Positions 46,501 to 64,000 of a DNA stretch of 64,000 nt are shown in pieces. Every line of letters starts with the position of its first letter. The first letter of the stretch is position 1. Location of the stretch: NCBI GenBank assembly GCA_020846975.1, contig JADLCX010000050.1:1-64000 (forward strand), given 5' to 3'. Below the pieces are notes generated by a model, which saw nothing but the letters and a program-made list of their open reading frames with translations, was not told the origin of the DNA and made no database searches. Origin of the DNA: Phycisphaerales bacterium. Lineage in GTDB: Bacteria; Planctomycetota; Phycisphaerae; Phycisphaerales; UBA1924. Made by a program: the position numbers and the translations under genes.

Positions 46501-49500
46501 GAGCCCGCCGGAGACGGTGATGTCCTGGTCGGCGTCGCCGCGCAGGCTGTTGAAGGTGGATGCGCCGCCGGAGAACGTGAGCGTCGTGCCCGCGTCGAGG
46601 GTTGTGAGCCCCGCGATGCCCATCGACTGCATGTCGGTCACGCCGTCCACGGCGATCGCGGCCGTCGGCCCGCCGCCGATGGTCAGCTCGCCCGCGGAGA
46701 TGCGCCCGAGTTCATCGCCGGTGATGGTCAGGCGGCCGGCCATGTCGGTGAACGCGCCGACCGCGATGTCCCCGGGCGTCGAGCGGGTGATCGTGACCTG
46801 CCCGGTTCCGGCGGCGATGCTGCCGTCGAGCACGATGTCGGCGGCGGTGATGTCGAGGTTGCCGTTGGAGGTGGTCAGGGTCTTGTCGGTCGCGAGCGTG
46901 AACGCGCCCATGCCGTCGTCGTCGGCGTCTGCGTCGATGCTGAGGTTGCCGCCCTGGTTGGTGACACTCTCGCCGAAGTTGATGCCGTTGTTGGCGGCGA
47001 TGTTGAGGACCATGCCCTCGCCCGCGCCGGCGAAGGTCACGGTCCCGCCCGCGTCGAGCGTGAGCGTGCCGTCAACGCTGATGGAACTGTTGATGACGAC
47101 ATCCTGGTTGGAATCGATGGCCAGATCGCCGTCGCTGAGGATGCCGGCGGTCATGCCCGATCCGCCGGCCGCGCCGCGGAGAACGACGTTGCCGCCGCCG
47201 GGCTGGGTGGTCAGCATCCGACCGGAGCGGATGAAGATCTGGTCCTGGTGCGCGCCCATGACGCCGGGAGCGTCGGCATCTGCGGCCATGTCGGCGTCGG
47301 CGTCGAGGTCGAGGGCGCCCGTGTCGGCGGTGATGTTGGAATCGACATCGATCCCGGCATCGGACCGCACGGTCAGGGCGTTGAACGTCGAAGCCGTGCC
47401 CGAGAAGGCGACGCTGGCGTTGTCGGCCAGGGCGCGGAGCGTGACCGTGCCGATGTTCTGCGAGTCGTCGGCGTCGACGTCGCGGGCGGTGATCCGGCTG
47501 GTGTGGTCGGAATCGCCGACGATGAGCTCCGCGGCGGTGATCGCGGCGAGTTCCTCGTTGGAGATGTTCATGTCCTCGGAGGCGATGTTCCCGACGCCGA
47601 TGGTGCCGTCGGTGGCGCGGGCGATCGTGACAACGCCGGCGCCCGCGTTGAGCGCGGTCCCGACGCCGCCGATCTGCAGGTCGTTGGCGGCAATCGAGAT
47701 GCCGCCGTTGTCGGCGGAGATGCTGTCGTTGATGGTGACGACGCCGTCGGGGGCCGCGCCGCCCGCGGTGACGACGAACGAATCGGCGGCCCAGGCGACA
47801 CCGTTGGTGCTGATGGACCCGCCGGAAGAGAGCACGGCCGCGCCCATATCGGCCGAGAGCGTGGCCCGGAGTGTGGCGGTCCCGGAGTTGGCGATGTTGA
47901 TGCCGCCGGGCGCGGTCGCGGTCAGCGACTGCGTGTTGGTCTTGAACTCACCCGCGCCGCCGGAAGCCGTGATCGAACCGGCGGTCGTGCCGAGCACGAC
48001 GGTGGCGGCGGTCACGGCGTCGCCCGAGGCGGTGGCGTCGGCGATCCCGTCGGCCGCGTTGAGCGTCACGACACCCGTGCCGGACGTGGCCACGGGCGAG
48101 GCGATCGAGAGCGCGCCGGCGGTGGTGATGGTGATGTCGCCGTCCATCGCCGCGGTCACGCCGTCGATCGAATCGATCGACCCGATCTCGAGGCCCGTCG
48201 CGGCGTTGTCGATGGTGATGTCGCCCGCGCCGGCGTTGACGGCGAGCCTCGCAGCGCTGATGTCGAGATCGACCCCGCCGGTCGAGTCGATGACCACGCG
48301 CCCGTTGGTCCCGCCGATGGTGACATCCGTGGAACCGCCGGTGCTGGAGATGGCGCCGACTTGGAGCGAGAGGAGCCGATCGGAGCCGAGGGTCAGGGCG
48401 TGGGCGAGACTGGTGGCCCCGCCGCGGAGGCCGAGGTCGTAGGTCTGGGCGCTGAGGTCGAGGTCGCTGATTCCGCCGACGGTGATCGCGCCGCTGTCGG
48501 CGGCGCCGATGACGACTCGACCGGTGGTCGAGAGTTCGCGGAGTTCGGCAAGGTCGAGGGAGAAGTCGGCGGCGGTGTCGAGGCCGATCGTCGCGCCCGC
48601 GGTCGAGGGCCGGAGGGTGATGTCGCTCGCGCCGACGGAGATGGCCGCGCCCATCGAACCGGTGTCGATGGCGATATCGGGAGCAACCAGCGTGACCGAG
48701 CCGGTGGTGCCGATGAGGGTCACATCCATCCGCGTGTTGCCGGGGATGGAGGTCTCGAAGATCGTGATGTCGCCCGCGGCATCGGCGGATCCGGCCCCGT
48801 CGCGGGAGCGGGCGGTGATCGCCCCGAACGTGTTCGTCGCGTTGTCGAGCGTGATGTCGGCGCCGGCGTTGGCGCGGGTGGTGAACGAGGCCGCCCCGCC
48901 GACGGTCATCGGGCCCGCGCCCGCGTCGGCGATCGCGCCCGTCGACACGACGGCGAGCGAGCCGCCGACTTCGGATGCGCCGAACGTTACGGGCCCCACG
49001 GCGTCGATCGAGGCGTTGCCGTCCGTGCCGCTCGTGTGGACGCCGAGCCCCGCCGAGGAGAGCTGCGTCACGGTGATGTCGGCATCGGCTGTCGAGGTCG
49101 TGAGGTTGGCGACATCGCCGACGGTGACCACCCCGGTGTTGGTGATGTTGCCCGTGGTCGCGGTGAGGGCGAGGCTGCCGCCGATACTCGCCGCGGCGAG
49201 CGTGACGCCCTGAGCGTTGACGATGTTGGCGTTGCCGGCGGGGCCCGCGGTCGAGAGCGAGATCGGGCCCGCCGCGTCGAGGGTGTTGAGATCGATGACC
49301 GCGTCGGCCGCGGCGGTGGTGAAACCGCTGGCGCCGCCGACGATCAGCGCGTTGTCGTCGAAGATGTTGCCGGTGGTCGCGGTCGCCGTCAGGTTGCCGC
49401 CGACCGCGGTGTCGGCGAAGGTGAGGCCCTGCGCGTTGGTGATTGTGGCGTGGCCCATCGAGCCGGAGGTGATGAGCGTGGTTGTGATGCCGGGGGCATC

Positions 49501-52185
49501 GGAGATGTCGCCGTTGGCGATGGTGATGGTCGCGTCGGGCTGGGTGGCCTCGATGTGGACCTTGCCCTGCGAGGCGAGCGTGCCGGTGGCGGTGATGTTG
49601 CCCCCCGCCGCCACGAGCTCGACGGTGCGGCCCATCGGCGAGGACTGGTTGGCCGTCAGATCGGTGATGTTGATCGCGCCCGTGGAGCGGATCGAGATCG
49701 CGCCGTCGGTGGTCGCGGCGTCGATGACGTCGATCCCGCCGGAGTCCTTGATGAACAGGCCTCCGGCCGCGGAGACCGCGGCGTCGAGTTCGCCGGCGTC
49801 GATGTCGAGCGGGCCCGTGCCCGTGCCGTCGTCGGTGCCGGGATCGCCGATGCCGGCGCCGGCGCGCAGCGTGAGCCGGCCGGAAACCTGGAGGTCGGTC
49901 AGGTCATCGGCGGCGACCTCGTCGATCTTGCCCGCGGTCTCGATGGTGAGGTTCGCCGCGCTCGGCGCGACCGGCACCATCGGGTCGGAGGAGTTGCCGA
50001 CGGTGATGTCGCCGGAGCCGGCGGAGCGGACGGCGAGGTTGGTCGAGGCGATGCCCGCGAGCTCGGCCGGATCGATCGAGAGATCGCCGGGCCCGCCCAG
50101 ACCGATCGTGCGGTTGCCGTTGGCGGTGACGGTCACGCTCTCGGCGGTGACGGTCGAACCGAGCGCAAGGTCATCGCCCTGCAAGTTGATCGCGCCGCCC
50201 GCGCCCGAGGCGGTGAGCGCGCCGGTGGTGGTGACGGAGCCGGAATCGGCCCGGAGCCCGAGCGTCTTGCCCGAAGCGACCTGCACGGCGTCGGCCGTGA
50301 CCGAGCCCGCGCGAACGCTGAGGTTGTAGCCGGTCGCGGACAGATCGATCGCGGCGATGCTCGCGGCGTCGTTTCGCGTTGTCGTGGAGATGGCGACATC
50401 GGAGGCCGTGATGGCGCCCAGTTCGGCGGACGAGACCTGGAACGCGCCCGCGCCGGTCTGGATGCCGATGGACTGGTCCGCGGAACTGTTGGCACGGAGA
50501 TTCACGGCCGCGCCGGCGATCGTGGACGAACCGTTGAGCTCGAAATCGACGCCCTCGGCGGTCACATCGCCCCCGTTGGCCGCGACGCGTCCGTCGGTGG
50601 TCACGCCGTCGTTGTTGAAGATGACCGAACCGGCCGTGTCGTCGGGGTCGGTGTTGCCGCCCGCGCCGTTGTTGGCGAGCAGATTCACGTTGAGCTCGCC
50701 CGAGGTCGAGGAGATCGCCTGGTTGACGGCGAGGTCGTTGGCGGCGCGGAGGGTCAGCGTGGCGTCTCCACCGGCGGTCTTGGCGATGGCCGCATCAACG
50801 GTGATGTTGCCCGCGTCGGCGCCGGCGGAGCCGGTCTCGATGGTGACATCGGTGCCGGTATCGAGGGAGGCGACGATGGCCGTGGCTGCGGCGCTGTCGA
50901 TGACCATGTCGGTCGGGTCGAGCAGCCATTGGCCGTTTCCGTCCTTGCCAGAGGCGTTCACACGCGCGCCGGCGATGTCGAGGGTGTTCTTTCCGGAGGT
51001 CTCGACGAACCCGCCGTCGCCGTGCTTGTCGCCACCGCCGGCCGAGGCCTTGCCGCCGAAACTCGTGTGATCGTCGGCATAGACAACGACCGAGCCGCCA
51101 TCGCCGCGGCGGAGGGCGTCGGCGCTGATGGACGAGCCGGAATCGACCGAGACGGTCTGCGCGTGGGGCAGTTCGCCCCCGCCGCGGGCGTCACCGCCGA
51201 TCCGGACCGCCCCGCCGGAACGGGAGCCGGACGCGTCGATGGTCGCGGAGTTGAGCGCGATGTCCTTGCCGGTGATGGTGACGTTCCCGCCGCGACCGCC
51301 GACGGATCGGTCGGAGGCGTCGAGCGTGCCGGAGACCTCGACGCGGCCCGATCCGCCCCGAATCTGGATGTCGTCGGCCCGGACCTTTCCGGTGTTCCTG
51401 ATGGCCAGCGCGTAGAGGTCGCCCGCGGCCATGAGGGTGCTGCCGCCGCGGGTGTTGATGACGCCCGAGTTGTCGATCGCGGCGCGGCCGTCACCGACCG
51501 CGTTCTGAGCCGACGCGTCGATCTTGACGCTGATCGAGCTTCCCTGGGGCGTGAGCGTGACCTCGTTGCCCGAGACCATGGCGACCACGCCCTCGCCGGA
51601 GTTGGGGATGATGATGCCGGAGTTGGCGACGTGGGCGCCGATCAACGCGGCGGTGTCGGCCTCGATGCGGCCCTGGTTGGTGACATCGCCGGTGACGCCG
51701 GTGAAGCGGTCAACCCCGGCCATGAAGTCCTGGTTCGAGATGTTGCCCGCCGCGGCGTACAGGTGCGCGACGTCGATGACGCTGCTGCCCGTGAAGATCA
51801 CGCCGTTGGGGTTGACGATGTAGACGCGGCCGTTGGAGCGGAGCGTGCCGTCGATCGTCGTGGGACGCGCGCTCTGGATGCGGTTGAGCACGCGCGAGTC
51901 GGAGTTGGGCTGGACGAAGCGGACGGTCTCGCCGCGCCCGATATCGAAACTGCGGTAATCGATCACCGCGCGATCGCTGGTGCGGATGATGGTGCGGTCG
52001 CCACGCTGGATGAAGCGGGCTCGCCCCTCGCGGACGCGCGCGCCCTCAGGCCCGGCCAACGCCGTGGTCGCGGCCAGCAGCAGCGCGACCCCTCCGCCGA
52101 CGAAGCGGAACTGTCCGAGGCCGAGTCCGATGACGCGGCCGCGCGAGGTGGGGCGGAAGTCCGATCGCCGAGTACGGTCGTGCAT
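43516..52185 (-). CDS. Giant two-partner-secretion exoprotein (TpsA / filamentous haemagglutinin-like)
   Basis: About 2889 residues from the ATG preceded by CAGGAG. After a signal peptide (FVGGGVALLLAATTALA) comes the TPS domain recognised by the TpsB partner: NSDSRVLNRIQSARPTTIDG, RVYIVNPNGVIFTGSSV. The body is a very long beta-helix of repeats in which an ELxxIxAxxLxIG-type motif recurs at least seven times (ELGRISAGELTIGGG, ELARIVATGLTIGGA). The last 300 residues are helical, charged and non-repetitive (LARHQKIFYKSNVDPQTGEA, RELRKCKSAVLRLV). It is exported across the outer membrane and probably mediates adhesion or contact. The TpsB gene lies 350 bases upstream on the same strand. Confidence 0.9.
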   Translation of the reverse strand: MHDRTRRSDFRPTSRGRVIGLGLGQFRFVGGGVALLLAATTALAGPEGARVREGRARFIQRGDRTIIRTSDRAVIDYRSFDIGRGETVRFVQPNSDSRVLNRIQSARPTTIDGTLRSNGRVYIVNPNGVIFTGSSVIDVAHLYAAAGNISNQDFMAGVDRFTGVTGDVTNQGRIEADTAALIGAHVANSGIIIPNSGEGVVAMVSGNEVTLTPQGSSISVKIDASAQNAVGDGRAAIDNSGVINTRGGSTLMAAGDLYALAIRNTGKVRADDIQIRGGSGRVEVSGTLDASDRSVGGRGGNVTITGKDIALNSATIDASGSRSGGAVRIGGDARGGGELPHAQTVSVDSGSSISADALRRGDGGSVVVYADDHTSFGGKASAGGGDKHGDGGFVETSGKNTLDIAGARVNASGKDGNGQWLLDPTDMVIDSAAATAIVASLDTGTDVTIETGSAGADAGNITVDAAIAKTAGGDATLTLRAANDLAVNQAISSTSGELNVNLLANNGAGGNTDPDDTAGSVIFNNDGVTTDGRVAANGGDVTAEGVDFELNGSSTIAGAAVNLRANSSADQSIGIQTGAGAFQVSSAELGAITASDVAISTTTRNDAASIAAIDLSATGYNLSVRAGSVTADAVQVASGKTLGLRADSGSVTTTGALTASGAGGAINLQGDDLALGSTVTAESVTVTANGNRTIGLGGPGDLSIDPAELAGIASTNLAVRSAGSGDITVGNSSDPMVPVAPSAANLTIETAGKIDEVAADDLTDLQVSGRLTLRAGAGIGDPGTDDGTGTGPLDIDAGELDAAVSAAGGLFIKDSGGIDVIDAATTDGAISIRSTGAINITDLTANQSSPMGRTVELVAAGGNITATGTLASQGKVHIEATQPDATITIANGDISDAPGITTTLITSGSMGHATITNAQGLTFADTAVGGNLTATATTGNIFDDNALIVGGASGFTTAAADAVIDLNTLDAAGPISLSTAGPAGNANIVNAQGVTLAAASIGGSLALTATTGNITNTGVVTVGDVANLTTSTADADITVTQLSSAGLGVHTSGTDGNASIDAVGPVTFGASEVGGSLAVVSTGAIADAGAGPMTVGGAASFTTRANAGADITLDNATNTFGAITARSRDGAGSADAAGDITIFETSIPGNTRMDVTLIGTTGSVTLVAPDIAIDTGSMGAAISVGASDITLRPSTAGATIGLDTAADFSLDLAELRELSTTGRVVIGAADSGAITVGGISDLDLSAQTYDLGLRGGATSLAHALTLGSDRLLSLQVGAISSTGGSTDVTIGGTNGRVVIDSTGGVDLDISAARLAVNAGAGDITIDNAATGLEIGSIDSIDGVTAAMDGDITITTAGALSIASPVATSGTGVVTLNAADGIADATASGDAVTAATVVLGTTAGSITASGGAGEFKTNTQSLTATAPGGINIANSGTATLRATLSADMGAAVLSSGGSISTNGVAWAADSFVVTAGGAAPDGVVTINDSISADNGGISIAANDLQIGGVGTALNAGAGVVTIARATDGTIGVGNIASEDMNISNEELAAITAAELIVGDSDHTSRITARDVDADDSQNIGTVTLRALADNASVAFSGTASTFNALTVRSDAGIDVDSNITADTGALDLDADADMAADADAPGVMGAHQDQIFIRSGRMLTTQPGGGNVVLRGAAGGSGMTAGILSDGDLAIDSNQDVVINSSISVDGTLTLDAGGTVTFAGAGEGMVLNIAANNGINFGESVTNQGGNLSIDADADDDGMGAFTLATDKTLTTSNGNLDITAADIVLDGSIAAGTGQVTITRSTPGDIAVGAFTDMAGRLTITGDELGRISAGELTIGGGPTAAIAVDGVTDMQSMGIAGLTTLDAGTTLTFSGGASTFNSLRGDADQDITVSGGLNTDGPLTLNADVDSNDSGLLNISAPIATGNGEFIGTGTDLALTAAINAGTGDITFSRSAAGSITVDNAPDAAGRMVIDDSELALLTGGRLTIGGGVTDIVTVRNFSATDGAGIAGITTFDANDQLTFNGSSTFKELLGKSDNLVLVNGNLTTTAGDITLNGNGNAADDTDDRIEIGSGRTIDSAGNLTLSASRGGIEGLGSLTLRAAGEARINHNLTTSGDTVIAADTDGNGSGGFILPASTVLNTSGSNLELTAADIELNGNIITGGGAAGIDRSAAGNIALGAVTDQGGTMTITGAELARIVATGLTIGGANTTNMTVNGVTDSNSNSIAGTLTLSALGNDGEVRFEGTASRFNALSVKADSRVVTEVSLVTDSGNMTLDGGANTTDKNDGLVALGAGLIASSTGTATAANFFDLTFNSPVRLRANPTLEAEDITFNSRLNSAAGEFRLLTINSHESGTTVFRGTVGGDDRLAGLFTNADGVTRLGADVFTTREGVTFDDRMVLTNDVKINDSGSGVAFGGTIDSDDDGTPRSLTVLSRRNTSETVNSLPTITFTEDVGATHRLRNIYLNCDPSTGANGRDEIPRVATIVARPVDNNGNFTPVTGALRTFQFLATDEFRMGQNEKLTVGGHVRIRGGDRVTLGDVAALGDFTVNSPDIRLLRRAPGTLSARDPSRLTGTGVRVNDVDNGVDYVAGGIFRFTSTPVAVGEGANPQFGNSSGVRDAAGALNAFIFQTFSDFNRSLIDVGNPIITQDLKSSGPSDTNFATALAGAIPRESRENDVSQIETINAASFSELEQLGVFPRDLSDEERVAGLIGWSTYDDYPETGAPTEADFRTAVNRLPGPEATAVLARHQKIFYKSNVDPQTGEARAESLAPEIKKTFEESIKRFRTRAGTAAATERVDPVALREYIERAPEESASLAHARQLQGLLRDIELLGLTSRELRKCKSAVLRLVRPNGLGTREQFETFLKTDIRELEEQSVKIDSSEKAG

Positions 52186-52536
52186 GGTCAACTCCTGCGC
52201 CGAGGATCCGGACGGCGGGTGGCTCGTCCGGGTGTGGTTCAACTCTGTCGTCTGATGCTCGCGGTGCGCCAGTCTGCCGGGGCCATCGTTGCAGCCCGGC
52301 ACGGATGCCGCCCCCCGTGCCCGCCCGCCCCCTCGCGCCCACCCATCCCCAGCCCCCACGCCCCGCTCCCTCCCGACCCGCCCATGACCCTCGCCTCGCC
52401 CGGCTCGGCCGGTTGGTTGCTCGCCCGCGAGCGGCAAGGCCCCGAGCCGGCCGACGGCGTCGGAAAATCCATTCCCCCCGAAGAAGTCCGTTTCATGTCT
52501 GTGTACGGGCCTCATGCCCATGAACCCACGGATTCT
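52186..52536. other. Spacer between tpsB and tpsA
   Basis: About 350 bases of very C-rich plus strand between two genes of one transcription unit. No gene is supported. A separate promoter for the exoprotein may be here, but no -35/-10 pair stands out. Confidence 0.4.
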
Positions 52537-54537
52537 CTAGAACAAGATTGTCGCGGAAATGTGGAAACGGTTGCTTCCCGAGGTCACTTCCCCTTCAATT
52601 TCGTCGAGAGCGATCCCCCAATCGACACGGACGTTCAGGTTTCGCCTGTAAAGCAGGTCCACACCGACGCCCGCGCCGATAAGGGTTTCGTCCGACTCGG
52701 TCCCCTGGGCGCTGTTGATGTTCGAGCTGCCCATGTCGAGGAAGCCCTTGAGAACAAGGTCCCAGTCGGCCCGCCCGTAGGGAACCTGTGGCCGATAACG
52801 GAAGGTCTCGCCGAAGAGCTTGCCGGGCGTGGCCTCGATCCCGAGGGCCTGCGGCAGGTGGAAGCGGTATTCGATTGTCCCCACGACGACCGAATCGCCG
52901 GCAACCACCGATTCCGGGTAGCCGCGCACCGTGTACATGCCGCCCAGGACATCCTGGAAGTTGGGGATGAGCCGGTAGTTGAACGCGTACTGGCCGCGAA
53001 CGGCGAGGGCGATCTCGTGGGCGAGTGTGGTGTTGGCGGCGGAGGAGTTCTCGATGAAGAACTGCTCGATGTAGAACGAGTGGCTGAGCAGGCCGTGGAA
53101 GGTGCCCCAGTCGGGGTCGGCGTTCTGGCGCTGGAGGTCGTCGAGATCGTCGGAGGTGTTGGCGACATCCTGGAGGTTGAACTCGAAACCGGCCTCGGCG
53201 TTGGTCGCGGAAGTATCGGTGAATCTCTCGAGTCGCAGCCCCACGTCGGGCAGGAAGAAGTCGTCGTCGCCCTCGGTGTCGAGCGCGTCGTTGGTGGTGG
53301 TGATGTGCTGCCAGCGCGCGCCCGCGTAGGCATCGAGGAACAGGGACTGGCGCTGGAGGATGTTGGCGATGATCTCGCCGCCGAAGGTCCAGCCGTCGCC
53401 GTCGAACTGCTCTTCCGTGGCGCCGACGTCGGAGGCCTGGAACGAGTTGGCGTTGCCGAACAGCCGCATCCTGAGCCAGTCGCCCCAGATCGGACGCTCG
53501 TAGTTGAGGCCGACGTACTGGGAATCCTCGAACCCGGCGGTCACGTAGTCGATGCTGAGGATGTCGTCCGCGCCGGTGAGCTGGTTGTGGACGAATCCGA
53601 AACGCTCGCGCCATTCGTTGGTCTGCGCTGTGCCGGTGTTGGAGATCTGGGCGTAGATCGACCAGGGCTTGTTCTCGTTGACGAGGTAGTCGAGCGCGAG
53701 TTCGCCCTCGCGCTCGCCCGCGGCGATCGCCAGGTCGACGCGCCGCCCGGGATGGCGGTTCAGGCGGTAGACGTAGTCGTCGAGCTTGTCCTTGCGGAGC
53801 AGGTCGGCCCGGCGCGGGTCGTCCTGCTCGAAGACCTTGACGGGGGAGTTCTTCAGGATCGGCGCGTGGAGCGGGTTGTTGATGCGCTCCTCGTACGGCA
53901 CGCGATCGCCGAACGCGAGCGTCCGCTCTTCGCCGACGACACCGGTGCGGACGATGAGCGTCACCGCCGTCGAGCCCTTGGGCCGCTGGTCGACGTACTG
54001 GGCCTCGCCCTCCTTGCGGGCATCGTTGGGCGCGAACTCCTGGTCCGAGAGCGTCACGAGCGTGGCGAAGATGCCCTCCTTCTCAAGGGCCTGCTTGACG
54101 GCGCGCTGGACCGCGAAGAGCGCGAACGTGGTGTATCGCTGCGGCGGCTGCGTGCACAACTCCTCGATCGAGTAGGTGGCCTTCGTCGTCGCGCTGGACG
54201 GCTTGGCGTACCCGCCATCCACCACGCCCAGCGTGACGCGGGCCTTCATCAGGTCATCGAGCGCGGGGAACTGGGGGTGCTCTACGGCATATCGGATCAC
54301 GAACGCGCCCACCAGGTAGCTGGGGGTCTCGGGGTCCGGCGAGTTGTCGGTCGGGGAGGCCTGGTCGGGCGCCTTGTAGTCCGTCGTGCGCTTGGGGTTC
54401 TCCACCGGAGCCGGCTCCGGCTTGCCGGCCGACTGCTGGGCGAGCGCAACGGTCGGGCAAACGCCCGCCGCGGCGACGAGCACCGCCGCGGAGAGCAGGG
54501 CGCTGCGTGGGGCAATCTTGGAACGGAAGTTCGGCAT
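52537..54537 (-). CDS. Outer-membrane transporter of two-partner secretion (TpsB, ShlB/FhaC/HecB family)
   Basis: About 666 residues from the ATG preceded by GAGG; signal peptide AVLVAAAGVCPTVALA. The N-terminal 280 residues contain POTRA-like segments that bind the exoprotein, ending YRLNRHPGRRVDLAIAAG, a hallmark of the family. The rest forms a beta-barrel (YAQISNTGTAQTNEW, YVTAGFEDSQYVGLNYERP) finishing in the aromatic end ISATILF used for outer-membrane assembly. It would carry the adjacent TpsA across the outer membrane without ATP. A Pro-rich linker of about 40 residues follows the signal. Confidence 0.9.
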   Translation of the reverse strand: MPNFRSKIAPRSALLSAAVLVAAAGVCPTVALAQQSAGKPEPAPVENPKRTTDYKAPDQASPTDNSPDPETPSYLVGAFVIRYAVEHPQFPALDDLMKARVTLGVVDGGYAKPSSATTKATYSIEELCTQPPQRYTTFALFAVQRAVKQALEKEGIFATLVTLSDQEFAPNDARKEGEAQYVDQRPKGSTAVTLIVRTGVVGEERTLAFGDRVPYEERINNPLHAPILKNSPVKVFEQDDPRRADLLRKDKLDDYVYRLNRHPGRRVDLAIAAGEREGELALDYLVNENKPWSIYAQISNTGTAQTNEWRERFGFVHNQLTGADDILSIDYVTAGFEDSQYVGLNYERPIWGDWLRMRLFGNANSFQASDVGATEEQFDGDGWTFGGEIIANILQRQSLFLDAYAGARWQHITTTNDALDTEGDDDFFLPDVGLRLERFTDTSATNAEAGFEFNLQDVANTSDDLDDLQRQNADPDWGTFHGLLSHSFYIEQFFIENSSAANTTLAHEIALAVRGQYAFNYRLIPNFQDVLGGMYTVRGYPESVVAGDSVVVGTIEYRFHLPQALGIEATPGKLFGETFRYRPQVPYGRADWDLVLKGFLDMGSSNINSAQGTESDETLIGAGVGVDLLYRRNLNVRVDWGIALDEIEGEVTSGSNRFHISATILF

Positions 54538-54729
54538 GAGCAATCCTCGACGTCGGACCAGACCGCGAACGGGAGAAGCCTCCGGATTCGCGCCCCCTTC
54601 GCCCGACCCAACCCCCGACCGTGGTCCGGCAAATGTAAGCACCCACAAGCTACCGGCAAAGCTCGCGCACCGTCAAACCCCCCGTTCACCCACAATGGCG
54701 ATCGGGCGGTTCCGACACCGACCGACCGA

Positions 54730-57700
54730 CTACTTGGCCTTCAGGTACGGTGTGGGCGTCAACAGCCGATCGAGGCGGGCGGCCATCGAATGGGCGTCAG
54801 CCCCGACATGCTTCCCCGTAAAAACCAACCGGAAGCCCACATCGCAATACCCCTCGGCGGCCTCGGCGAGGTTGACGGTGCGCGGCGTTTGCGGTGCCAT
54901 GGCCGGATCGGTGAGGGCCGAACCACCGATCACCTTGAAGCGTTCGGAGCAGGACCCGGCCAGTTCGACCGTCCGGGCGCCGCGCGGATCGGCGGGAAAA
55001 GCGACGGACGCATCGAGAACGTACTCGGCGACGTTGCCGATCATGTGCCGGGGCGCATCGACCGGGCTCTGGGGATCAGGCGCGAACCAGAGCCAGCCGT
55101 CATCAACGGGGACGATCGACTTTTGCCCGGACGAATCGAGTCGCTCACGGTCCAACGCCCCCGCATCGGCGGGTTGCACGGCCAGCCCGGATGCCGTGAG
55201 TCCGGCGATGTGATCGCGGTGTCGGGCCCAAGTCTGGTCGCGGAAGTTGCTCGGCTGAGGAACCGCCGCGAACGCGCCCGCGGCGGCGAGCCACTCGCCC
55301 GAGGTCGGGAGGCGACAGCCAACCAGCGAGGCGAAGCACGCCGCGGCAACCGGGGCGATGTGCTGCACGGGCGAAGCATCGACCGGACGGAGCGGAAACT
55401 GGCCGATGCCGTACTCGTCGATCCGTCCACCCTGGCTGATGAGCCACTCGTGGGCCGGTCGGATGCTTGTGCGATCGGGGTTCCACTCCCACGAGCGTGG
55501 ACCGAAGCGGGGGTCTTCATCGGGCGCGAAGGTCTGCAGGAACCGGGCGAGTCTCGGGGTCGAGACCGAGGAATCCGCCGCGGAGACCGCGTGCATGGAC
55601 GCGAAGGCGGCGACGCCGACCTCGGAGGTGCCGATGTAGAACGGCGCGACACCGGATCCCGCGGGAGGCCGGACCAGCACGAACTCGATCGGGAGGGCGT
55701 GGCCCCAATCCGAAAACTCCGCCTTCGGCGAGAAGACCAACCGGTCCCCGTCGCGCTCGGCCGACGCGGTGTAGCGGCCCGTCGCGGCGGGTCCGAGCGC
55801 CGCGTACCACGCGGGAAGGCTCGCGGGCTCCTTGCCACCGGCGATGAGTTCAAGGTCGGTCAGGACGGGCACGACCTCGGACCGGAACGAGACGCCGCCG
55901 GGAAGTTCGCGGGCCGCGGTGGCGAACCGCCGGATCTCGGCGCGAAGTTCGGCCTCTCCCAGGCGATCGACCGAAGCGCGAAGCCCTCGGAGGTGGAAGT
56001 TGTACCTGAGCCAGGGGTCGAGTTGATCCGGCGAAACGCCGAACTCCGCGAGCCGCGAGAACCCGGCGTCGATGTTGGCGGCATCCCGCGTGTACGACAG
56101 GAAGCGAATCAGCCGACGGGATTCCTCCTGGGCGAGGTGCTCCCGGAGCTGTCCACGACGGGCGGGATCGGGGAGCCGATCGATAACCCCGCGAACGCTG
56201 GCCGCGGCGGCCGCTTCCTGGTCGAGTTCCTCAACAGTCGCGGGCCAGAGCACGCCGGGGCGCTGAGAGAGCCGTCGCCACGAAGCGAGCGCGAGTTCGG
56301 GACGGGAAGGATCGGGGGTGTGTGCGCCGGAAACGAGGATCAGGGCGTCGTTGACGCCCTCGGCCGCACGAAGCCCTTCGACGCGCTCCAGCAACGGTCC
56401 GACGATCCGGCGGATGACGGGGTCGGACTTGGCACGCCCGGCCCATTCGCCGGAGAGTTCCTGGATCGTTTGTGCGGCGGCCGTTGCGTCGGATGAGGTT
56501 CGACGCTCCGCGCTGCCCCAGGCGTTGTCGAGGAGCGATTCGACGGCGGCCATCTGGTCCGCGGCGCGAGCCGCACGCCCGCAGAGATCGACGAACTCAG
56601 ACGCTTCGCGCTCGACATCGTCGGTGGAGCCCGCGAGCGCGGGATCAACCGGCGCCTCGGACCACGGGGCGAGGACCCGTTCGAGCCGCCGCTCTCGGGC
56701 GTTGGCAAGCTCGGCGTTGAGCCTCTCCATCCAGGCGGGCTGAGGATCGGGCCGGCGAATGCCGCGAGGCAGCGATCGATCGAGGCCGCGGAGGAACGCC
56801 TCGGTGCGTTGAAACTGCGCCCCCAGCGTCTCGGCCTGGGCCGGGACCAGGGCGATGCGCTGGCGGATCATCAAGGCCTGTCGGTGGAGGGCGGCGGCGA
56901 TCGCCGCCGATTCGATCGGTTTCGCCTCGCCAACCGCGCCGGTTGGCGGCTCTGCGCCCCCGGCTCGGTCGGGCAGCGGAGCCGCCGCGACGAGGATGTA
57001 GACCGCGACGGCCAGCAGCGCAAGGAGAATCACCACGATCGCGAGCGTTCGGGCGGCGGAGCGAGGCGCGATGGGAGCGACGACGGGCGCCGGCGGCCCG
57101 CCGGCCGAGTCCGGCGACGTCAGCGCGGAATCGATGGCCAGGTCCGCCGCGCGGATGAAGTCGGCGTCGAGGGTGTAGGGCACTTGGCTCACGAGGGGTA
57201 TGGCGGCCTGGGCTGCGCGCAGGCAGAACATCTGCGATCCGGTCGGTTCGCCGAAGATCGCATCGACCCACGCCCGGCCGCGCGGGTGGATGAGCATAAG
57301 CGGGTGCGCCGGGTCGATCCGAGTGTCGATGAACCGGGCCCACTGGGCGAGAACCTGGGCGTCGGCGGATCCGCACGCGGGGAGCCGGAGTTGGCGCGAG
57401 GCGGCCAGGCGGCCGCGGTCCTGCGAGTCGGCGCGACCGGCACGGAGGAAGGGGCCGAGTTCACGCTCAAACTGGAACATCACCCGGCGGATGCCCTGCC
57501 GCTCCGGCCCGAGGTCGGGGTGCTCGAGAAATCGCGTGAGCGACGGCGGCGGCGGGCTGGGCAACGAGCCGATCCGTGCGGCTTCTTCGGCGATGCGGCG
57601 TCGCTCAACATCGACGTAGGCGACCACTTCGGCGGGATCGACGGCCTGGCGGCAACGCGAGGCGAGCGCGTCGAGCGTGGGCAGGGCGAGTTGCAGCGCA

Positions 57701-58047
57701 TCGGGCAAGCCCATGTTCTGCGCGTGGACGGCGACGACCATCGGGTATTTGTCGCGGCCCTTGCCGTCACGGCTGGACCAGAGCCGCGCGATCAGGAAGT
57801 CGGTCGAGGGCGCGGCATCGCTTCCCGCGGCTCGCCACAGCAGGGTATGGTCAAACTCCGGCAGGGTCGCGCCCGGCGAGGTCTCCTCGAGCTTCTCCCA
57901 CTGGCCGCTCTCGACACACGCGGCGATCCCGTCCACGTACAGCACACGCTTGAGATCGGTCAATCGCTGCGTATCGAGCCCGAGGTCGTCGATGTGGTCG
58001 TTCCAACCCGGGTGCTTGCCGAAAACGCCGAGACTGGCCTGCGGCAC
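54730..58047 (-). CDS. tagF: T6SS TagF domain fused through a membrane segment to an FGE-like domain
   Basis: A 1105-residue protein from a GTG. Residues 1-280 match TagF: LGVFGKHPGWNDHIDDLGL, DFLIARLWSSRDGKGRDKYPM. Residues 335-355 form one transmembrane helix (LAIVVILLALLAVAVYILVA). About 400 residues of helical sequence follow, and residues about 770-1090 form a formylglycine-generating-enzyme-like domain (PFYIGTSEVGVAAFASM, GCRLPTSGEWLAAAGAF, MIGNVAEYVLDAS, YCDVGFRLVF). TagF represses type VI secretion post-translationally; in Pseudomonas the FGE-like protein TagR instead promotes it from the periplasm. Here both kinds of domain are in one protein that would span the inner membrane. It is the last gene of the visible T6SS operon. 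Domain calls are firm; the joint regulatory role is inferred. Confidence 0.85.
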   Translation of the reverse strand: MPQASLGVFGKHPGWNDHIDDLGLDTQRLTDLKRVLYVDGIAACVESGQWEKLEETSPGATLPEFDHTLLWRAAGSDAAPSTDFLIARLWSSRDGKGRDKYPMVVAVHAQNMGLPDALQLALPTLDALASRCRQAVDPAEVVAYVDVERRRIAEEAARIGSLPSPPPPSLTRFLEHPDLGPERQGIRRVMFQFERELGPFLRAGRADSQDRGRLAASRQLRLPACGSADAQVLAQWARFIDTRIDPAHPLMLIHPRGRAWVDAIFGEPTGSQMFCLRAAQAAIPLVSQVPYTLDADFIRAADLAIDSALTSPDSAGGPPAPVVAPIAPRSAARTLAIVVILLALLAVAVYILVAAAPLPDRAGGAEPPTGAVGEAKPIESAAIAAALHRQALMIRQRIALVPAQAETLGAQFQRTEAFLRGLDRSLPRGIRRPDPQPAWMERLNAELANARERRLERVLAPWSEAPVDPALAGSTDDVEREASEFVDLCGRAARAADQMAAVESLLDNAWGSAERRTSSDATAAAQTIQELSGEWAGRAKSDPVIRRIVGPLLERVEGLRAAEGVNDALILVSGAHTPDPSRPELALASWRRLSQRPGVLWPATVEELDQEAAAAASVRGVIDRLPDPARRGQLREHLAQEESRRLIRFLSYTRDAANIDAGFSRLAEFGVSPDQLDPWLRYNFHLRGLRASVDRLGEAELRAEIRRFATAARELPGGVSFRSEVVPVLTDLELIAGGKEPASLPAWYAALGPAATGRYTASAERDGDRLVFSPKAEFSDWGHALPIEFVLVRPPAGSGVAPFYIGTSEVGVAAFASMHAVSAADSSVSTPRLARFLQTFAPDEDPRFGPRSWEWNPDRTSIRPAHEWLISQGGRIDEYGIGQFPLRPVDASPVQHIAPVAAACFASLVGCRLPTSGEWLAAAGAFAAVPQPSNFRDQTWARHRDHIAGLTASGLAVQPADAGALDRERLDSSGQKSIVPVDDGWLWFAPDPQSPVDAPRHMIGNVAEYVLDASVAFPADPRGARTVELAGSCSERFKVIGGSALTDPAMAPQTPRTVNLAEAAEGYCDVGFRLVFTGKHVGADAHSMAARLDRLLTPTPYLKAK

Positions 58048-58146: not shown

Positions 58147-61100
58147 TCAGCGGTACCACGGTGCGGGAGGCAGGGGTTGATCGAACACAAGGCGCAGCCA
58201 CATGGAGTACCGCGTCGCACCGGAGGTGAAGACCACCTCGACATCCCACGCTTTGAGGTCATCGCCGGCCGGCTTGCCGGAGAACTCCTCGATCAAGCGA
58301 AGCGGGATCCACGGTCCCGGCGCGGTGTAGGGCGGACCCGCCGGGCGATCGCCCGATGCGCCGGAGCGCAGCTCGAAGAGAACGCTCTGGGCCAGCATCG
58401 GGATGGCGCCCAGGCTCTCGCCCGCGCGGATCGGAACGGTCTTGCCCGTGGGAGGCCCGCCCGCCCTCGCGATGAACATGCTGAGTTGCGAGAGCGTGGT
58501 GATGGGCCGAGCGCCGGCACGCGCCGGTCGGTCGGTCAGGATCGAGACCCGGCATTCGGCACGCGCGGGATCGGCGGGGAGCGCTTCGAGCATCCGACGC
58601 ATGCGAGCGATCGCGGCGGGCGCGGCGCCCGCGGGCGCGGCCGCCGCGCCGCCGCAGCCGAGCAGGGCACGCCCGGCGTCGTTGATCTCGGGATCATCGG
58701 AGATCGGACGATCGCAGGCCGGCGAGACGGCGGGCGAAGCAGCGGTCGGAGCACGCAAAACCGCGGCGCGGGCTTCGGCAAGTTCGGCGGCGGAAAGAGC
58801 CGCGACATCGGGCTGCGGACGATTCAGCGGAAAGCGATCAAGGGGACGGAGATCGAGCGTCGCGACGGGAGCCTGCCCGCCCGCGCCGGGACCGGCCGCG
58901 AGCGTGCGCATCCACGAGACCGTCAGGGACTGCCACGTCCGGCGAACAAAGTCGTCATCGGCCGCGCGGATGTAGTAGGGCTCCAGGGGCGATGGCCCGA
59001 GCGCGGTGGCGGCGATGGCGGCGCGAGCGGTGTCGGGGTTGTCGGACAGAGCCCTCCAGCGGCCGAGCACGCCCGCGCAGAGCTGGCGGAACTCGGGCGA
59101 CTCGACGGCCGATCGGGCCTTGGCGACCGATCGCCTCGCGCCGGCCAGCGCGGCGGCGAGGGTCTGATCGCTCGGCTCGACAAGCGGCGCAACCCGGTCG
59201 ACCGCCTCCTGCGAGAGCGCCTGGATCGCGGCCAGCGCATCCAGCACGGTCGCGGCCTGACCGACCGACGCGAAGTCGGTGCGGAGTTGCGGGTAGCCGG
59301 ACGGTGAAACGACCCTGACATGGCCCGCGAGATCGGAACTCCAGTGCGCGAGGTAGCGGGCCAGGTACTCCGAAGCCGCCGCGGATGCGCTGGTCAGGCG
59401 TGCGGCCGCCTCGCCGCCGGCCGAGCCCTGCGCCATCGCCTTGCGCACGGCCGCGAAATCGCCGAGCACCTTCGCGGCCGCGACGGGATCGAAGCGGGGA
59501 TCGAGCAGCCCCGCGCCGAACTGGAGCATCGCCGCGCGCGGCAGGCCGTCAGGCCGCGGCACGGCGGACTTGGCCACCGCGGCCGCGACGGCGTCGGCGG
59601 TCGTCGGAAGACTCTCGCCCGCGCGCCCCATGACCGCGGCGCGGCGGGACTGGGCCGCGAGGTTGGCCGCGGTCGTGGCCACGGCGCGCGCGGCGGCGAA
59701 CCTGGTGTTGGCATCGACGGCCTCGCGCGTGGCGCCGAGCCGTTCGCGGAGTTCATCCTCGATGATGCGCAGATCGCCGGCGAGATCGGACTCGATCGTG
59801 GCCAGCGGCGGCGGGGCGCTGGCGGGCGACGCCGGGTCTGGTTGAGCGACCTGGAATCGGTCGTTGAGCCGTGAATAGATCGCGTGACGGGTGACGTAGA
59901 ACGGACGGCCGGGGTCGCCGATGCACGAGGCATCCAGCCGGGCCAGGGAGAGCACGATGTCGGTCTGCGCTCTGGTGGCCGTCGCGAGGCGTTCCGCGCC
60001 GGAGGCGATGATGTCGCGGGCGGCGCGGAGCGCGGCGAGGCGGGCTCCGCCGGAGGCGGCATCGGCGGGGTCGATCGGCTTGAGTTCGTCCAGCAGGGTC
60101 CGCACCTCGCCGCCACGGGACTCGCGGTGGCGCGTCAGTTCGTCGGCGAAGGCCTTGGCGAGCGAGCGGTTGTCGAGCGCGGGGAAGGCCTCATCGACCT
60201 TCCTGCGTGCCTCGGACAGCGCCGTGAAGCGGGACTTCCACTCGCTCACCCAGTCGGGCGGCGGCTTGTCGGGATCGATGGAGACCAGCGCCTTCTCCGC
60301 TGCGTCAAACTCGCCGAGCGCCAGGGCGAGGCCGGTCATTCCTGCCAGACCGCTGGTCGGGGAAGGCTGGTCGAGGGACTCCACGAACGCCCCAGCCGCC
60401 GATTCGAGCTCGGTCGCGGAGAGTTGCGTGAGCCCCGCCGGCGCGGTAGGCGCGCCGTCGGCCGGCGCGAAGTACCAGCGTGAGAGCGCCTCGAGATCCG
60501 CGGTTTCGCCCGCCGCGCCGCCGGCCGTGTAGCCGTCGTTGGTCTCGAGCGAGAAACGCAGCAGCGAGTCGAGCGCCGGAAGCCGCCCCTTGCCCGTGAC
60601 GGACAGAGTCTGGGCGCGGAGCAACTGGGCGAGCGCGGCGGTCGTCTGGGCCGACCAGGCCCGCTTCTCGGCCATGTCGGCGTTGAGGCGCACACGCGAG
60701 GCATCGAGCAGCGCGCGAAGGATCCCGGACTCAAAGAGGGCGCGGCCCGCTTCGGCCCGCGCGTCGTGGGCGATGTCGCGGTCGCCCTCGCCGCCGAGCG
60801 CGGCCACCGGTGCATAGACCCAGGGCACGGGCAGTCGCTGCTCGATGCGGGCGCGAACTTCCTGATGGACCCGCGCGCGGGTCTTGCTCGCTTCATCGAT
60901 CGGGAGCGAGGCGAGAATCGGGTCGGCCGGGGACGCAGACCCGCGATAGAAGAACTCGGTCGAACCGCGGGCGTTGGGCGCGACGATCGGGAGGGTGCGG
61001 GCGGAGAGGCCCGTGACCGGATCGGCCGGATCCAGGCCCGCGCGCGCCGTCGAGGCGAGCGAGTTCCAGAACTCGGTCGGCCCGATCATGGTGCTGGACA

Positions 61101-62505
61101 TGCTGCGGTGGCCGAGAAAACTGAGCGCGGCGAGCACGGCCAGGCCCAGGCCGGCCGAGCCGTAGACCAGCCCCCGGCGCGCGGCCTGCTGCTTGCCGGT
61201 GTTGACGGCGCGGGTGACCAGCCCCCGCTCGCGGAAGACCTTGCCCATGAACAGGTCGCGGAGGAAGTAGGAGCGGTCTCGCTCCCAGACCTTGCCCTCG
61301 GGGAGCGACTCGACGGGGACTCCCAGCGCCTCCGCGAGCTTGGCGTCGAGGACGCTGCCCTCGCGCATCGAACTGGTGAAGTAGATGCCGCGGAGGAACA
61401 GCGGCTTGGCGGACCACTCCCCCGAGACAAAGATCATCGAGAGGTACCGCTTGAGCCGCGGGGCGATGTCCTGGAAAGCGTCGGGGAACTCGTAGAGGGC
61501 ATCGACCTGCGCGGCCCGGCTCTGCCGCGGGTCTTCGGTGTTGATCGGGTCGAGCAGGAGGCCCAGACGACGGCGCAGCAGGCGGCGCTTGACGACCAGC
61601 AGGTGCTGATCGACCATCTCGGGGTTGAAGGGCGCGTCGAGCGGCGCGGTGTTCGACCAGCCCATGATCTGGTGCTGGAGCTGCGGGTCGGCGATCTCGT
61701 CGAAGAACTCGCGGAAGCCGTTGAGCAGGTCGCACTTGGTGACGACGACGTAGACCGGGAATCGAACGCCGAGCGCACGCTGGATCTGATCGAGCTGCTG
61801 GGCGATGCGCGCCCCCTTGCGCTCGATGGCGTCGGCGGTGTCCCGCACCAGGCTCTCGGCGGGGATCACCAGCAGCATCCCGTTGACCGGGCAGTTGGGG
61901 CGGCTGCGGCGGAGAAGTTTGAGGAACTCCTGCCACTCGCTGGTGGCTCCGGGCTCGACCTCCTCGAACATCAGCCGCCCGGCGGTATCCAGCATGACCG
62001 CGTGGTTCGTGAACCACCAGTTCATGTTCAGCGTGCCGCCCGCGCCCTGCAACTGATCCTGCAGGCCGGGCGGGAACCCGACATTGCAGTGGCGGATCGC
62101 CTCGGTCTTGCCCGACCCGGGTTCGCCCACGACCAGGTACCACGGCAGCGCGTACAGGTTCTTGCCGGCGTCACGGAACTTCTGAAGCCCGGACTCGAAA
62201 CTGCGACGGAGGTCGTCAAGCCGGGCGCGCCGGGCGGGCTCGGAGATCGCGACAAACGAGGTCGAGGCGTTGCCTCGGATGGCCTGTTCGAGCGGCGCGG
62301 CCGCGCGCGACTGGGCCCGCGCGGCCATGTGCTCGTAGCCCACCAGCAGCAGGCCCGCGACGGCGAGGCACGCGACGAACGCCGCGATCGCCTTGACCGA
62401 TCCGAACAGCACGAACCCGCCGACGAGAATCGCGACGGCCGTAACCGCCAGCGTGGCCTGCGTGGCGCGTGGAAGCCGCTGGAAACGGTGGATCAGTTCG
62501 GTCAC
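58147..62505 (-). CDS. tssM: T6SS inner-membrane protein TssM (IcmF)
   Basis: A 1452-residue IcmF-family protein. Two membrane helices occur in residues 15-60 and a third near 445 (GSAGLGLAVLAALSFLGH). The cytoplasmic domain has a Walker A GEPGSGKTEAI near residue 127 and MLDTAGRL as Walker B; the long periplasmic part ends with the family domain (SGATRYSMWLRLVFDQPLPP). It forms the membrane complex with TssL and TssJ. The GTG start overlaps the tssL stop (GTGA), deciding the start and showing translational coupling. No TssJ lipoprotein is seen in the window. Confidence 0.93.
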   Translation of the reverse strand: MTELIHRFQRLPRATQATLAVTAVAILVGGFVLFGSVKAIAAFVACLAVAGLLLVGYEHMAARAQSRAAAPLEQAIRGNASTSFVAISEPARRARLDDLRRSFESGLQKFRDAGKNLYALPWYLVVGEPGSGKTEAIRHCNVGFPPGLQDQLQGAGGTLNMNWWFTNHAVMLDTAGRLMFEEVEPGATSEWQEFLKLLRRSRPNCPVNGMLLVIPAESLVRDTADAIERKGARIAQQLDQIQRALGVRFPVYVVVTKCDLLNGFREFFDEIADPQLQHQIMGWSNTAPLDAPFNPEMVDQHLLVVKRRLLRRRLGLLLDPINTEDPRQSRAAQVDALYEFPDAFQDIAPRLKRYLSMIFVSGEWSAKPLFLRGIYFTSSMREGSVLDAKLAEALGVPVESLPEGKVWERDRSYFLRDLFMGKVFRERGLVTRAVNTGKQQAARRGLVYGSAGLGLAVLAALSFLGHRSMSSTMIGPTEFWNSLASTARAGLDPADPVTGLSARTLPIVAPNARGSTEFFYRGSASPADPILASLPIDEASKTRARVHQEVRARIEQRLPVPWVYAPVAALGGEGDRDIAHDARAEAGRALFESGILRALLDASRVRLNADMAEKRAWSAQTTAALAQLLRAQTLSVTGKGRLPALDSLLRFSLETNDGYTAGGAAGETADLEALSRWYFAPADGAPTAPAGLTQLSATELESAAGAFVESLDQPSPTSGLAGMTGLALALGEFDAAEKALVSIDPDKPPPDWVSEWKSRFTALSEARRKVDEAFPALDNRSLAKAFADELTRHRESRGGEVRTLLDELKPIDPADAASGGARLAALRAARDIIASGAERLATATRAQTDIVLSLARLDASCIGDPGRPFYVTRHAIYSRLNDRFQVAQPDPASPASAPPPLATIESDLAGDLRIIEDELRERLGATREAVDANTRFAAARAVATTAANLAAQSRRAAVMGRAGESLPTTADAVAAAVAKSAVPRPDGLPRAAMLQFGAGLLDPRFDPVAAAKVLGDFAAVRKAMAQGSAGGEAAARLTSASAAASEYLARYLAHWSSDLAGHVRVVSPSGYPQLRTDFASVGQAATVLDALAAIQALSQEAVDRVAPLVEPSDQTLAAALAGARRSVAKARSAVESPEFRQLCAGVLGRWRALSDNPDTARAAIAATALGPSPLEPYYIRAADDDFVRRTWQSLTVSWMRTLAAGPGAGGQAPVATLDLRPLDRFPLNRPQPDVAALSAAELAEARAAVLRAPTAASPAVSPACDRPISDDPEINDAGRALLGCGGAAAAPAGAAPAAIARMRRMLEALPADPARAECRVSILTDRPARAGARPITTLSQLSMFIARAGGPPTGKTVPIRAGESLGAIPMLAQSVLFELRSGASGDRPAGPPYTAPGPWIPLRLIEEFSGKPAGDDLKAWDVEVVFTSGATRYSMWLRLVFDQPLPPAPWYR

Positions 62506-63230
62506 TTCGACCCCCCGGTTCCGCCGCCGCGCTCGGCGCCCGCGCTCGCATCCGGCGCGGCCAACCGCTTGATCTGGTCGAGCGCATCGACAAGATCGGC
62601 GCGGCGCTCGCGGTAGAGCACGATGTTGGCCGCGAACACGGCCAGCGCCAGCCCCGCGAGCACGATGCCCACGCCGACCAGCCGGCGCGCGGGCGGTTCG
62701 ATGAGATCGGACGTGTTCACGCCCTCGTAGGCCTCGGGGCAGACCCGCGCCGCACGATCGGCCTCCAGGCCGGAGCGGATGCGAGAGGCGATCTCGGTCA
62801 TCTTGCGGCGCAGGTGATCGGGCTGCCCGCGATACCAGCCGGCGAAGCCCAGGCCCATGCAGGTGTAGAACACGCTCAGCCGCTGCGTCGCCGCGTCGGA
62901 CTTGTCCGCGAGCGTCGATTCCAACTGGTCGAAGAAATCCTCGTCTCCCCCGGAAAACCCGCGGGCCGCCGCGATGTCCTTCCATTGGCCGGCGTAGGGC
63001 AACCGGCTCTCTCTCACGATCCCATCGACGAAGTACAGCAGGATCGGCTCGACACGGGTCAACTGCTGGGCGACGGCGGGCTCGGCGGCGGCCCGCGTGC
63101 GAGCATCCTGGAGCAGGCCGTCAACATCCTCGGCAACCTGCGCCGCGGGCGGGCAGGCCCCCTTGCGCGCGCCGCGGTGCAGCCGACAGGCGTACTGGAA
63201 GACGGGTTCGCACACTTCGAGCAGGGTCAT
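62502..63230 (-). CDS. tssL: T6SS membrane protein TssL (DotU)
   Basis: A 242-residue DotU-family protein: helical cytoplasmic domain with AVAQQLTRVEPILLYFVDGI, YTCMGLGFAGWYRGQPDHL and LRRKMTEIASRI, then one C-terminal membrane helix (GVGIVLAGLALAVFAANIVLY) and a short periplasmic tail. It is the short form without a peptidoglycan-binding domain. TssL and TssM form the base of the secretion channel. It overlaps tssM by four bases. Confidence 0.9.
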   Translation of the reverse strand: MTLLEVCEPVFQYACRLHRGARKGACPPAAQVAEDVDGLLQDARTRAAAEPAVAQQLTRVEPILLYFVDGIVRESRLPYAGQWKDIAAARGFSGGDEDFFDQLESTLADKSDAATQRLSVFYTCMGLGFAGWYRGQPDHLRRKMTEIASRIRSGLEADRAARVCPEAYEGVNTSDLIEPPARRLVGVGIVLAGLALAVFAANIVLYRERRADLVDALDQIKRLAAPDASAGAERGGGTGGSK

Positions 63231-63253: not shown

Positions 63254-64000
63254 TTACCTCGGCGGCGGGGTCGCGGCCGCGCCGCGCAGGAGGGCCTCGG
63301 CGTAGGCGGCCACGGCAGCCATGATCTCCAGTTGCATCGACTCCACATCGTTGACCGCGGCGAGCTGCTCGTACTTGGCCCAACTCCGGGCCTCGACGTT
63401 CCAGGTCCCTTCGTCTCGTGCGGCCCGCTCGATCTCCGCAGGCGCGAACCGTTGCTGGTGGCGTTGCGCAAACTGCCGACCAGCCTGCCCGACGGCCGCG
63501 GTGAGCGCGGCCGTCACCTGCCGCAGACGCTCAAGGTCCTGGGGCAGGCTCGACGCGGCCGCGTCTTCGCCGCAGATGTACTTCTCCAGCGCGGCCCTGA
63601 TCGGCGTTCCGCGCTTGATCGCCGACTCGGGCGAGATCGCCTTCCACGTGTTCCACACCAGTTGATCCAGGCTCGCCACGAACTCGACGAGGCGGATGGT
63701 CGCCTGAACCACGCGAGCCGGATCGACGGGCTCAGTGCCGCGGTGCTGCAGCGCGGCGACAAGCCCCGCGGTCTGCGCCGCGGACAGGCCCGAATCCGCC
63801 GCGGCGCCGGAACCGGAACGCTCGGCGAGCCCCGCGTCCCTGAGCCGGCGCACGACGACGGCTCGCTCGCCGGCGGAGAGCGACGGCGCCAGTTCGACCA
63901 GCCGCCCGACGAGCGCCCCGGCATCGGTGGCGCTCGCGAGCGATTGATCGGTGTAGCCCATCGAGCCCGCGACCGATCGCAACGCGGCCTGGGCATCGCT
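63254..64000 (-). CDS. C-terminal part of a T6SS-associated protein, TagH/FHA-like; partial
   Basis: The frame is open to the window edge, so only the last 248 residues are seen. They are helical, with FVASLDQLVWNTWKAISPES and GTPIRAALEKYICGEDAA, and resemble the C-terminal region of FHA-domain T6SS accessory proteins (TagH/ImpI). The forkhead-associated domain itself would be outside the window. FHA proteins bind phosphothreonine and connect kinase signalling to secretion. It is 23 bases upstream of tssL and probably in the same operon. The family call rests on weak similarity and context. Confidence 0.45.
   Translation of the reverse strand, partial: SDAQAALRSVAGSMGYTDQSLASATDAGALVGRLVELAPSLSAGERAVVVRRLRDAGLAERSGSGAAADSGLSAAQTAGLVAALQHRGTEPVDPARVVQATIRLVEFVASLDQLVWNTWKAISPESAIKRGTPIRAALEKYICGEDAAASSLPQDLERLRQVTAALTAAVGQAGRQFAQRHQQRFAPAEIERAARDEGTWNVEARSWAKYEQLAAVNDVESMQLEIMAAVAAYAEALLRGAAATPPPR

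Follow-up and report, generated by a model that had tools for sequence, protein, structure and literature searches.

The DNA considered here is a stretch of 64,000 nucleotides from Phycisphaerales bacterium (contig JADLCX010000050.1, positions 1 to 64,000; hereafter the window), which encodes a protein related to TagF, a regulator of the type VI secretion system (T6SS). In a single chain this protein joins a TagF domain, one transmembrane (TM) helix, a helical stalk and a domain similar to formylglycine-generating enzymes (FGE), and its gene lies beside those for TssL and TssM in a genome that has no T6SS sheath. Our tentative reading, to which we give a little under half of the probability, is that an envelope-spanning TagF is paired with a pseudokinase twin, that the FGE heads of both proteins sense the envelope, and that TagF gates a TssL-TssM complex tied to two-partner export.

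The TagF-FGE fusion protein

The gene occupies positions 54730..58047 of the (-) strand and forms a single intact frame of 1105 amino acids with a GTG start. In the AlphaFold2 model, built from 28 aligned relatives (mean pLDDT 83.1), an alpha/beta domain (residues 1-310) is followed by a helix (332-354), an all-helical region (379-740) and an FGE fold from residue 750. Thus the layout supposed by the first-pass annotation, TagF and an FGE-like domain in one chain with a membrane helix and a long helical region between them, is borne out by both the open reading frame (ORF) and the model, where the TagF and FGE parts find fold matches with Z scores of 17.8 and 14.8. A phmmer comparison of the protein with the Protein Data Bank (PDB) returned chance matches only. 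That the fusion is an artefact of assembly or frameshift joining two genes could be suspected from two relatives, G046 and G089, in which a stop codon stands between the TagF and FGE parts. Yet GC content by codon position is even over the whole frame (0.74-0.87 at position 3 vs 0.46-0.59 at position 2) and its third-position value shows no break at the TagF/TM junction, so that a frameshift is unsupported; moreover, the same fusion is present in 23 genomes, and a strong TM segment takes the place of the signal peptide of the split relatives. The artefact is therefore excluded for practical purposes and keeps next to no probability.

The TagF domain (residues 1-310; 57118..58047, (-)) was identified by structure. 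The top PDB fold match of the model is TagF of Acinetobacter baylyi (9t0n; Z 17.8 over 279 residues, model residues 1-321), which Foldseek also ranked first (4.4e-7), and TagF of Pseudomonas aeruginosa gave Z 11.5-11.7. The Pfam scan found no TagF match in the window protein; among 17 family members seven matched TagF_N (PF09867), with a best E of 2e-4, below the curated gathering cut-off, and the family profile A1 recovered no TagF from PDB sequences, which only the fold comparison did. Since a divergent member is expected to fail the PF09867 cut-off, the assignment rests on fold and motifs, GKxP being kept in 45 of the 46 TagF members and SxDxxGR in 44. The GK and SDR residues, together with a DW pair, are needed for Fha binding by TagF of Agrobacterium tumefaciens (PMC5995506). 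By these features the fusion protein belongs to the TagF family and carries an additional module.

The lone membrane segment covers residues 335-353 with a mean hydropathy of 3.33 and corresponds to the modelled helix 332-354 (56986..57054, (-)). Arginines on its N-terminal side place TagF in the cytoplasm and the FGE part in the periplasm. The same orientation follows from G046 and G089, close to the window genome on the TssM tree, since there a separate gene, whose start lies 30-35 nt beyond the tagF stop codon, encodes the FGE part with a signal peptide ending AHA|Q or AAA|Q. In two fusions of 812-820 amino acids a weak, signal-peptide-like segment is located at the TagF/FGE joint. Both the single helix and the periplasmic side of the FGE part, as first proposed, have thus held, and a predicted physical link from the periplasm to TagF within one chain is supported by the sequence.

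The periplasmic stalk (residues 379-740; 55828..56913, (-)) is all-helical in the model, with pLDDT mostly above 80 beyond residue 500, and varies among relatives from almost none in the 812-820-aa proteins to about 750 residues. A PP2C (PppA) domain was considered as the middle part of the longer fusions, but those scanned contain none and their extra length is helical stalk. At the end of the chain the FGE-like domain (residues 750-1080; 54808..55800, (-)) passes the FGE-sulfatase profile PF03781 over residues 798-1075 (35 bits vs a cut-off of 23.3, E 1.6e-8), so that of the two domains only this one is recognised by Pfam in the window protein. A profile of the FGE part from 21 relatives matches human FGE (4.9e-10), and by fold the C-terminus matches formylglycine-generating enzymes (Z 14.8) and PorK (Z 13.7), a protein of the type IX secretion system (T9SS). 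The segment aligned to SYCYRYRC of human FGE is free of cysteine in both the window protein and the family consensus. Because both copper-binding catalytic cysteines are gone, the FGE part, judged by its residues, is probably not an enzyme; the structural motifs CRLPT.EW, GNVAE, GGSAL and DVGFRL are kept. The stalk-FGE module also exists alone: L053:9241-12819 in G125 and L122 in G137 carry it without TagF or a kinase domain, and neither genome gave a match to TssM.

A search for such fusions elsewhere found TagF and FGE in one chain in 23 of 46 related genomes with TagF and as adjacent genes in two (G046, G089), while most of the others have TagF alone and, in a few, a contig edge interrupts the locus. 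The first TssM tree requires nine changes of the fusion label, so that fusion and fission are frequent. Among 392 genomes sampled from the phylum this TagF occurs in seven, mostly from the same order, and no long TagF-FGE frame was seen outside the order. In G020 the T6SS locus has TagF alone, and a second locus, L119 (G020:C42:65000-78000), has a TagF-FGE fusion gene on one strand and a pseudokinase-FGE gene on the other.

A membrane complex without a sheath

No match to TssC, TssK, TssF or Hcp was found in the window genome. In a survey of 150 genomes TssC and TssK occur in an identical set of 33 and TssM in 47; 14 of these 47, the window genome included, have neither TssC nor TssK. None of the 14 has TssF, and 13 have no Hcp, the remaining one having a weak Hcp match elsewhere in its genome. 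One could suppose that a full T6SS is present and that its sheath and baseplate genes fell into unassembled parts of a draft genome, the more so as the window genome, with a completeness of 95.8%, is split into 102 contigs. However, every one of the 14 genomes lacks TssC, TssK and TssF jointly, and among them G035 is a single contig and G050 only four, so that assembly gaps cannot explain the absence; the window locus, moreover, lies inside a 117-kb contig whose right flank consists of unrelated genes. We regard this explanation as very improbable. The "T6SS protein" of the first-pass annotation can therefore not be kept in the sense of a firing system, as the sheath that it would repress is absent: strictly speaking, the locus is no T6SS but a TssL-TssM inner-membrane complex from which sheath, tube and baseplate are missing. 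Second, weaker TssC-like sheath matches (~1e-26 to 1e-51) occur away from the T6SS locus in several genomes (G084:C8, G067:C1, G032:C42, G024:C4 and others) and probably belong to other contractile injection systems.

On a careful TssM tree of 42 genomes the sheath state changes six times, at least five of the changes being forced by well-supported branches, and the grouping of sheathless genomes into a single clade is rejected (p-AU 0.002). G049, the sister of the window genome on this tree, is sheathed, and its TagF is fused. The natural reading of these changes is loss, in about five events, although transfer of TssM or sheath genes could blur the count. That the locus is a decaying remnant left after sheath loss, with a fusion that no longer functions in the window genome, might be concluded from the presence of the same block inside the full T6SS cluster of sheathed relatives. 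This explanation is already weakened and in our opinion improbable: all kept genes are intact, the window TssM has retained Walker A GEPGSGKT and DTAGR, the same block was retained through about five separate losses, and in two sheathless pairs dN/dS of the kept genes is 0.09-0.26 (one pair was tested for TagF, the free FGE protein and TpsB, the other for TagF, TssL and TssM), which as a sign of purifying selection indicates that they are in use.

The pseudokinase twin and the neighbouring genes

Just to the right of the window, at 64769-69229 of the contig and the next gene but three, lies a gene for a protein of 1486 amino acids, which consists of a kinase-like domain, one TM segment and then the same stalk and FGE module as in the TagF fusion. 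The profile of its kinase-like domain matches bacterial Ser/Thr kinases (StkP, 3e-6). The catalytic Asp of the HRD motif is missing in 13 of 13 aligned members, the loop reading HGxLxPxN, and for this reason we assign the neighbour as a PpkA-like pseudokinase. The search for PpkA and PppA genes to the right of the window, suggested by the first-pass annotation, thus yielded a PpkA relative, albeit one without the Asp, while no PppA-type phosphatase (PP2C_2, PF13672) was found in the window genome. The idea that the fusion passes its signal on directly, without a relay, is too simple, since the locus also codes for this pseudokinase, in which the TM-stalk-FGE module recurs. Whether the TagF copy of the module came from the kinase copy or the reverse was addressed by an FGE tree, which has few supported branches. 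In the sheathless G047 the pseudokinase-FGE gene (G047:C8:51507-55958) is on another contig than the TssLM-TagF-TpsBA block, and hence the pseudokinase and TagF are not always linked.

Upstream of the fusion gene lie TssM (IcmF; 58147..62985, (-), an ORF over-extended at its 5' end; PF14331 1.9e-55, TIGR03348 7.5e-84), the DotU-like TssL of 242 amino acids (62502..63230, (-)), recognised by homology to sheathed G020, where a gene between TssK and TssM is 54% identical to it, and F2/P0004, a conserved helical protein of 331 amino acids (63254..64000 and on to contig position 64249, (-)), which has positional homologues in relatives and gave no credible Pfam match and no significant PDB fold. 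Downstream follow a TpsB-type outer-membrane transporter of the ShlB/FhaC kind (52537..54648, (-); PF03865 3.9e-9) and a TpsA-type giant exported protein of 3001 amino acids with an N-terminal two-partner secretion (TPS) domain (43516..52521, (-); PF05860 3.5e-24). A ShlB-type barrel beside a TPS-domain protein makes up a two-partner secretion pair. An ORF of 4257 amino acids at 43723-56496 (+), opposite TpsA, TpsB and part of the TagF-FGE gene, is, given the GC content, almost certainly a non-coding antisense frame.

The order in the window is therefore F2, TssL, TssM, TagF-FGE, TpsB, TpsA. In sheathed loci it runs lipoprotein F6, pseudokinase-FGE, F2, TssK, TssL, TssM, TagF(-FGE), TpsB, giant TpsA, TssA, TssB, TssC, Hcp, ImpE, TssF, ClpV, that is, in complete T6SS clusters of the order the block from pseudokinase to TpsA is followed by TssABC. 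TpsB is the next gene after TagF in 39 of the 46 genomes, sheathed and sheathless (in G046 and G089 past the free FGE gene), and of the seven without it there four end at a contig edge. The sole T6SS of the set without TagF, that of G009, is also without TpsBA, F2 and FGE proteins, from which one can assume that these components travel together.

The TssJ lipoprotein gave no match to PF12790 in any of 21 genomes, sheathed ones included. A lipoprotein of about 177 amino acids, F6, is encoded ahead of the pseudokinase in sheathed loci and in some of those without a sheath (L082:8497-9027, L084:3777-4307, L047:1524-2051 and others) and is a TssJ candidate in some genomes, although PF12790 does not match it. 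On the contig of the window (C50) an 87-aa lipoprotein-like ORF (64497-64760, (+)) lies on the opposite strand, in the gap separating F2 from the pseudokinase, and similar small lipoproteins with a GD..GR-like motif stand at the matching place in sheathless G035, G046, G086 and G089.

Possible working of the locus and known systems

TagF represses T6SS post-translationally and binds Fha in Agrobacterium and Pseudomonas (PMC5995506), while in Serratia it blocks assembly of the T6SS membrane complex (PMC6082577). As the window genome has no sheath, its TagF cannot restrain a syringe, and TssLM is the target that remains in the locus. We suggest that the cytoplasmic TagF domain would be held at the inner membrane, with a periplasmic stalk that ends in a non-catalytic head of the FGE type, and would act as a pair with the PpkA-like pseudokinase that shares its TM-stalk-FGE module. 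Both heads may sense conditions in the periplasm or at the outer membrane, the simplest input being a lipoprotein or the adjacent TpsB/TpsA exporter; TagF, at the other end of the chain, would then permit or block assembly of the TssL-TssM membrane complex. Working in this way like a receptor, TagF would restrain TssLM until either FGE head, its own or the one on the pseudokinase, detects an envelope in the appropriate state, and TpsBA would be the export path that profits from the release. The machine so switched would be no contractile syringe; it would be a TssLM complex linked to the two-partner pathway by which a giant surface protein is exported. The stronger proposal, that a sheathless T6SS descendant, TssLM, switched by TagF-FGE and the pseudokinase, drives or gates export of the giant protein, we consider rather unlikely.

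Several observations weigh against the envelope-sensing gate. The DW pair has no clear counterpart in TagF alignment A1, no FHA domain was found on the window contig, which leaves the known partner Fha unrecognisable there, and F2/P0004, considered as an Fha C-terminal domain, gave no match to T6SS_FHA_C (PF20232) at this locus, and this role was set aside as unproven. About 20 of the 46 genomes have TagF without any FGE part, and hence the head is dispensable for the basic TagF role; the link to TpsBA is one of gene position. Stalk and head could also be a scaffold and not a sensor, providing constant docking of TagF on TssM, TpsB or the pseudokinase and so fixing its place and copy number. 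Loss of the catalytic residues would suit such a role, as would the variable length of the stalk and the fact that FGE-like domains can be structural, for example in PorK. On the other hand, a periplasmic module shared by repressor and pseudokinase resembles opposed signalling arms, and there is no obvious need for a scaffold on both proteins. We think the scaffold unlikely, though deserving of serious attention.

The nearest known proteins, TagF of the P. aeruginosa H1-T6SS (PA0076; 2QNU, 6IZ8) and of A. baylyi (9T0N), are alike in fold, in GK and SxDxxGR and in having tssM as a neighbour, but they are soluble, whereas the window TagF is predicted to be membrane-anchored with a periplasmic module. 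In A. tumefaciens TagF-PppA (Atu4331; PMC5995506) TagF is likewise the N-terminal half of a chimera. Its partner there is a phosphatase domain, while here it is the TM-stalk-FGE module and no PppA was found. TagR of P. aeruginosa, which we take to be an FGE-like protein on the periplasmic side, upstream of T6SS regulation, finds its closest likeness in the free signal-peptide FGE protein beside tagF in G046 and G089. However, TagR is separate and acts on PpkA, whereas here TagF and the FGE part form one chain and the pseudokinase has a copy of its own; the fusion is thus neither TagR nor an FGE enzyme. The neighbour resembles PpkA in its kinase-like fold, single TM segment, large periplasmic part and place in a T6SS locus, and differs from it in the missing catalytic Asp and in a periplasmic part that ends in an FGE-like domain. 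T6SS-iii of Bacteroidetes lacks the trans-envelope subcomplex (PMC4793230); it and the window locus both miss a whole sub-complex, the window being the mirror image, with TssLM and no sheath. The TpsB-TpsA pair has the side-by-side arrangement of type Vb two-partner secretion, but lies inside a T6SS locus directly after tagF. In the literature searched, which left most subscription journals outside, we found no report of TagF-FGE fusions or FGE domains in T6SS proteins, nor of planctomycete T6SS loci with an embedded TPS pair or sheathless TssLM loci.

T6SSs are widely held in check by TagF, and a chain in which an envelope part and TagF are wired together makes the route of envelope signals to this brake directly testable. 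A sheathless TssLM that gates the export of a giant protein would, if true, be a secretion arrangement not found in the literature covered by our search. Contrary to a rule of thumb, TagF, TssL and TssM were retained with the TpsBA exporter through several losses of the sheath, which suggests a separate function for the T6SS membrane complex itself.
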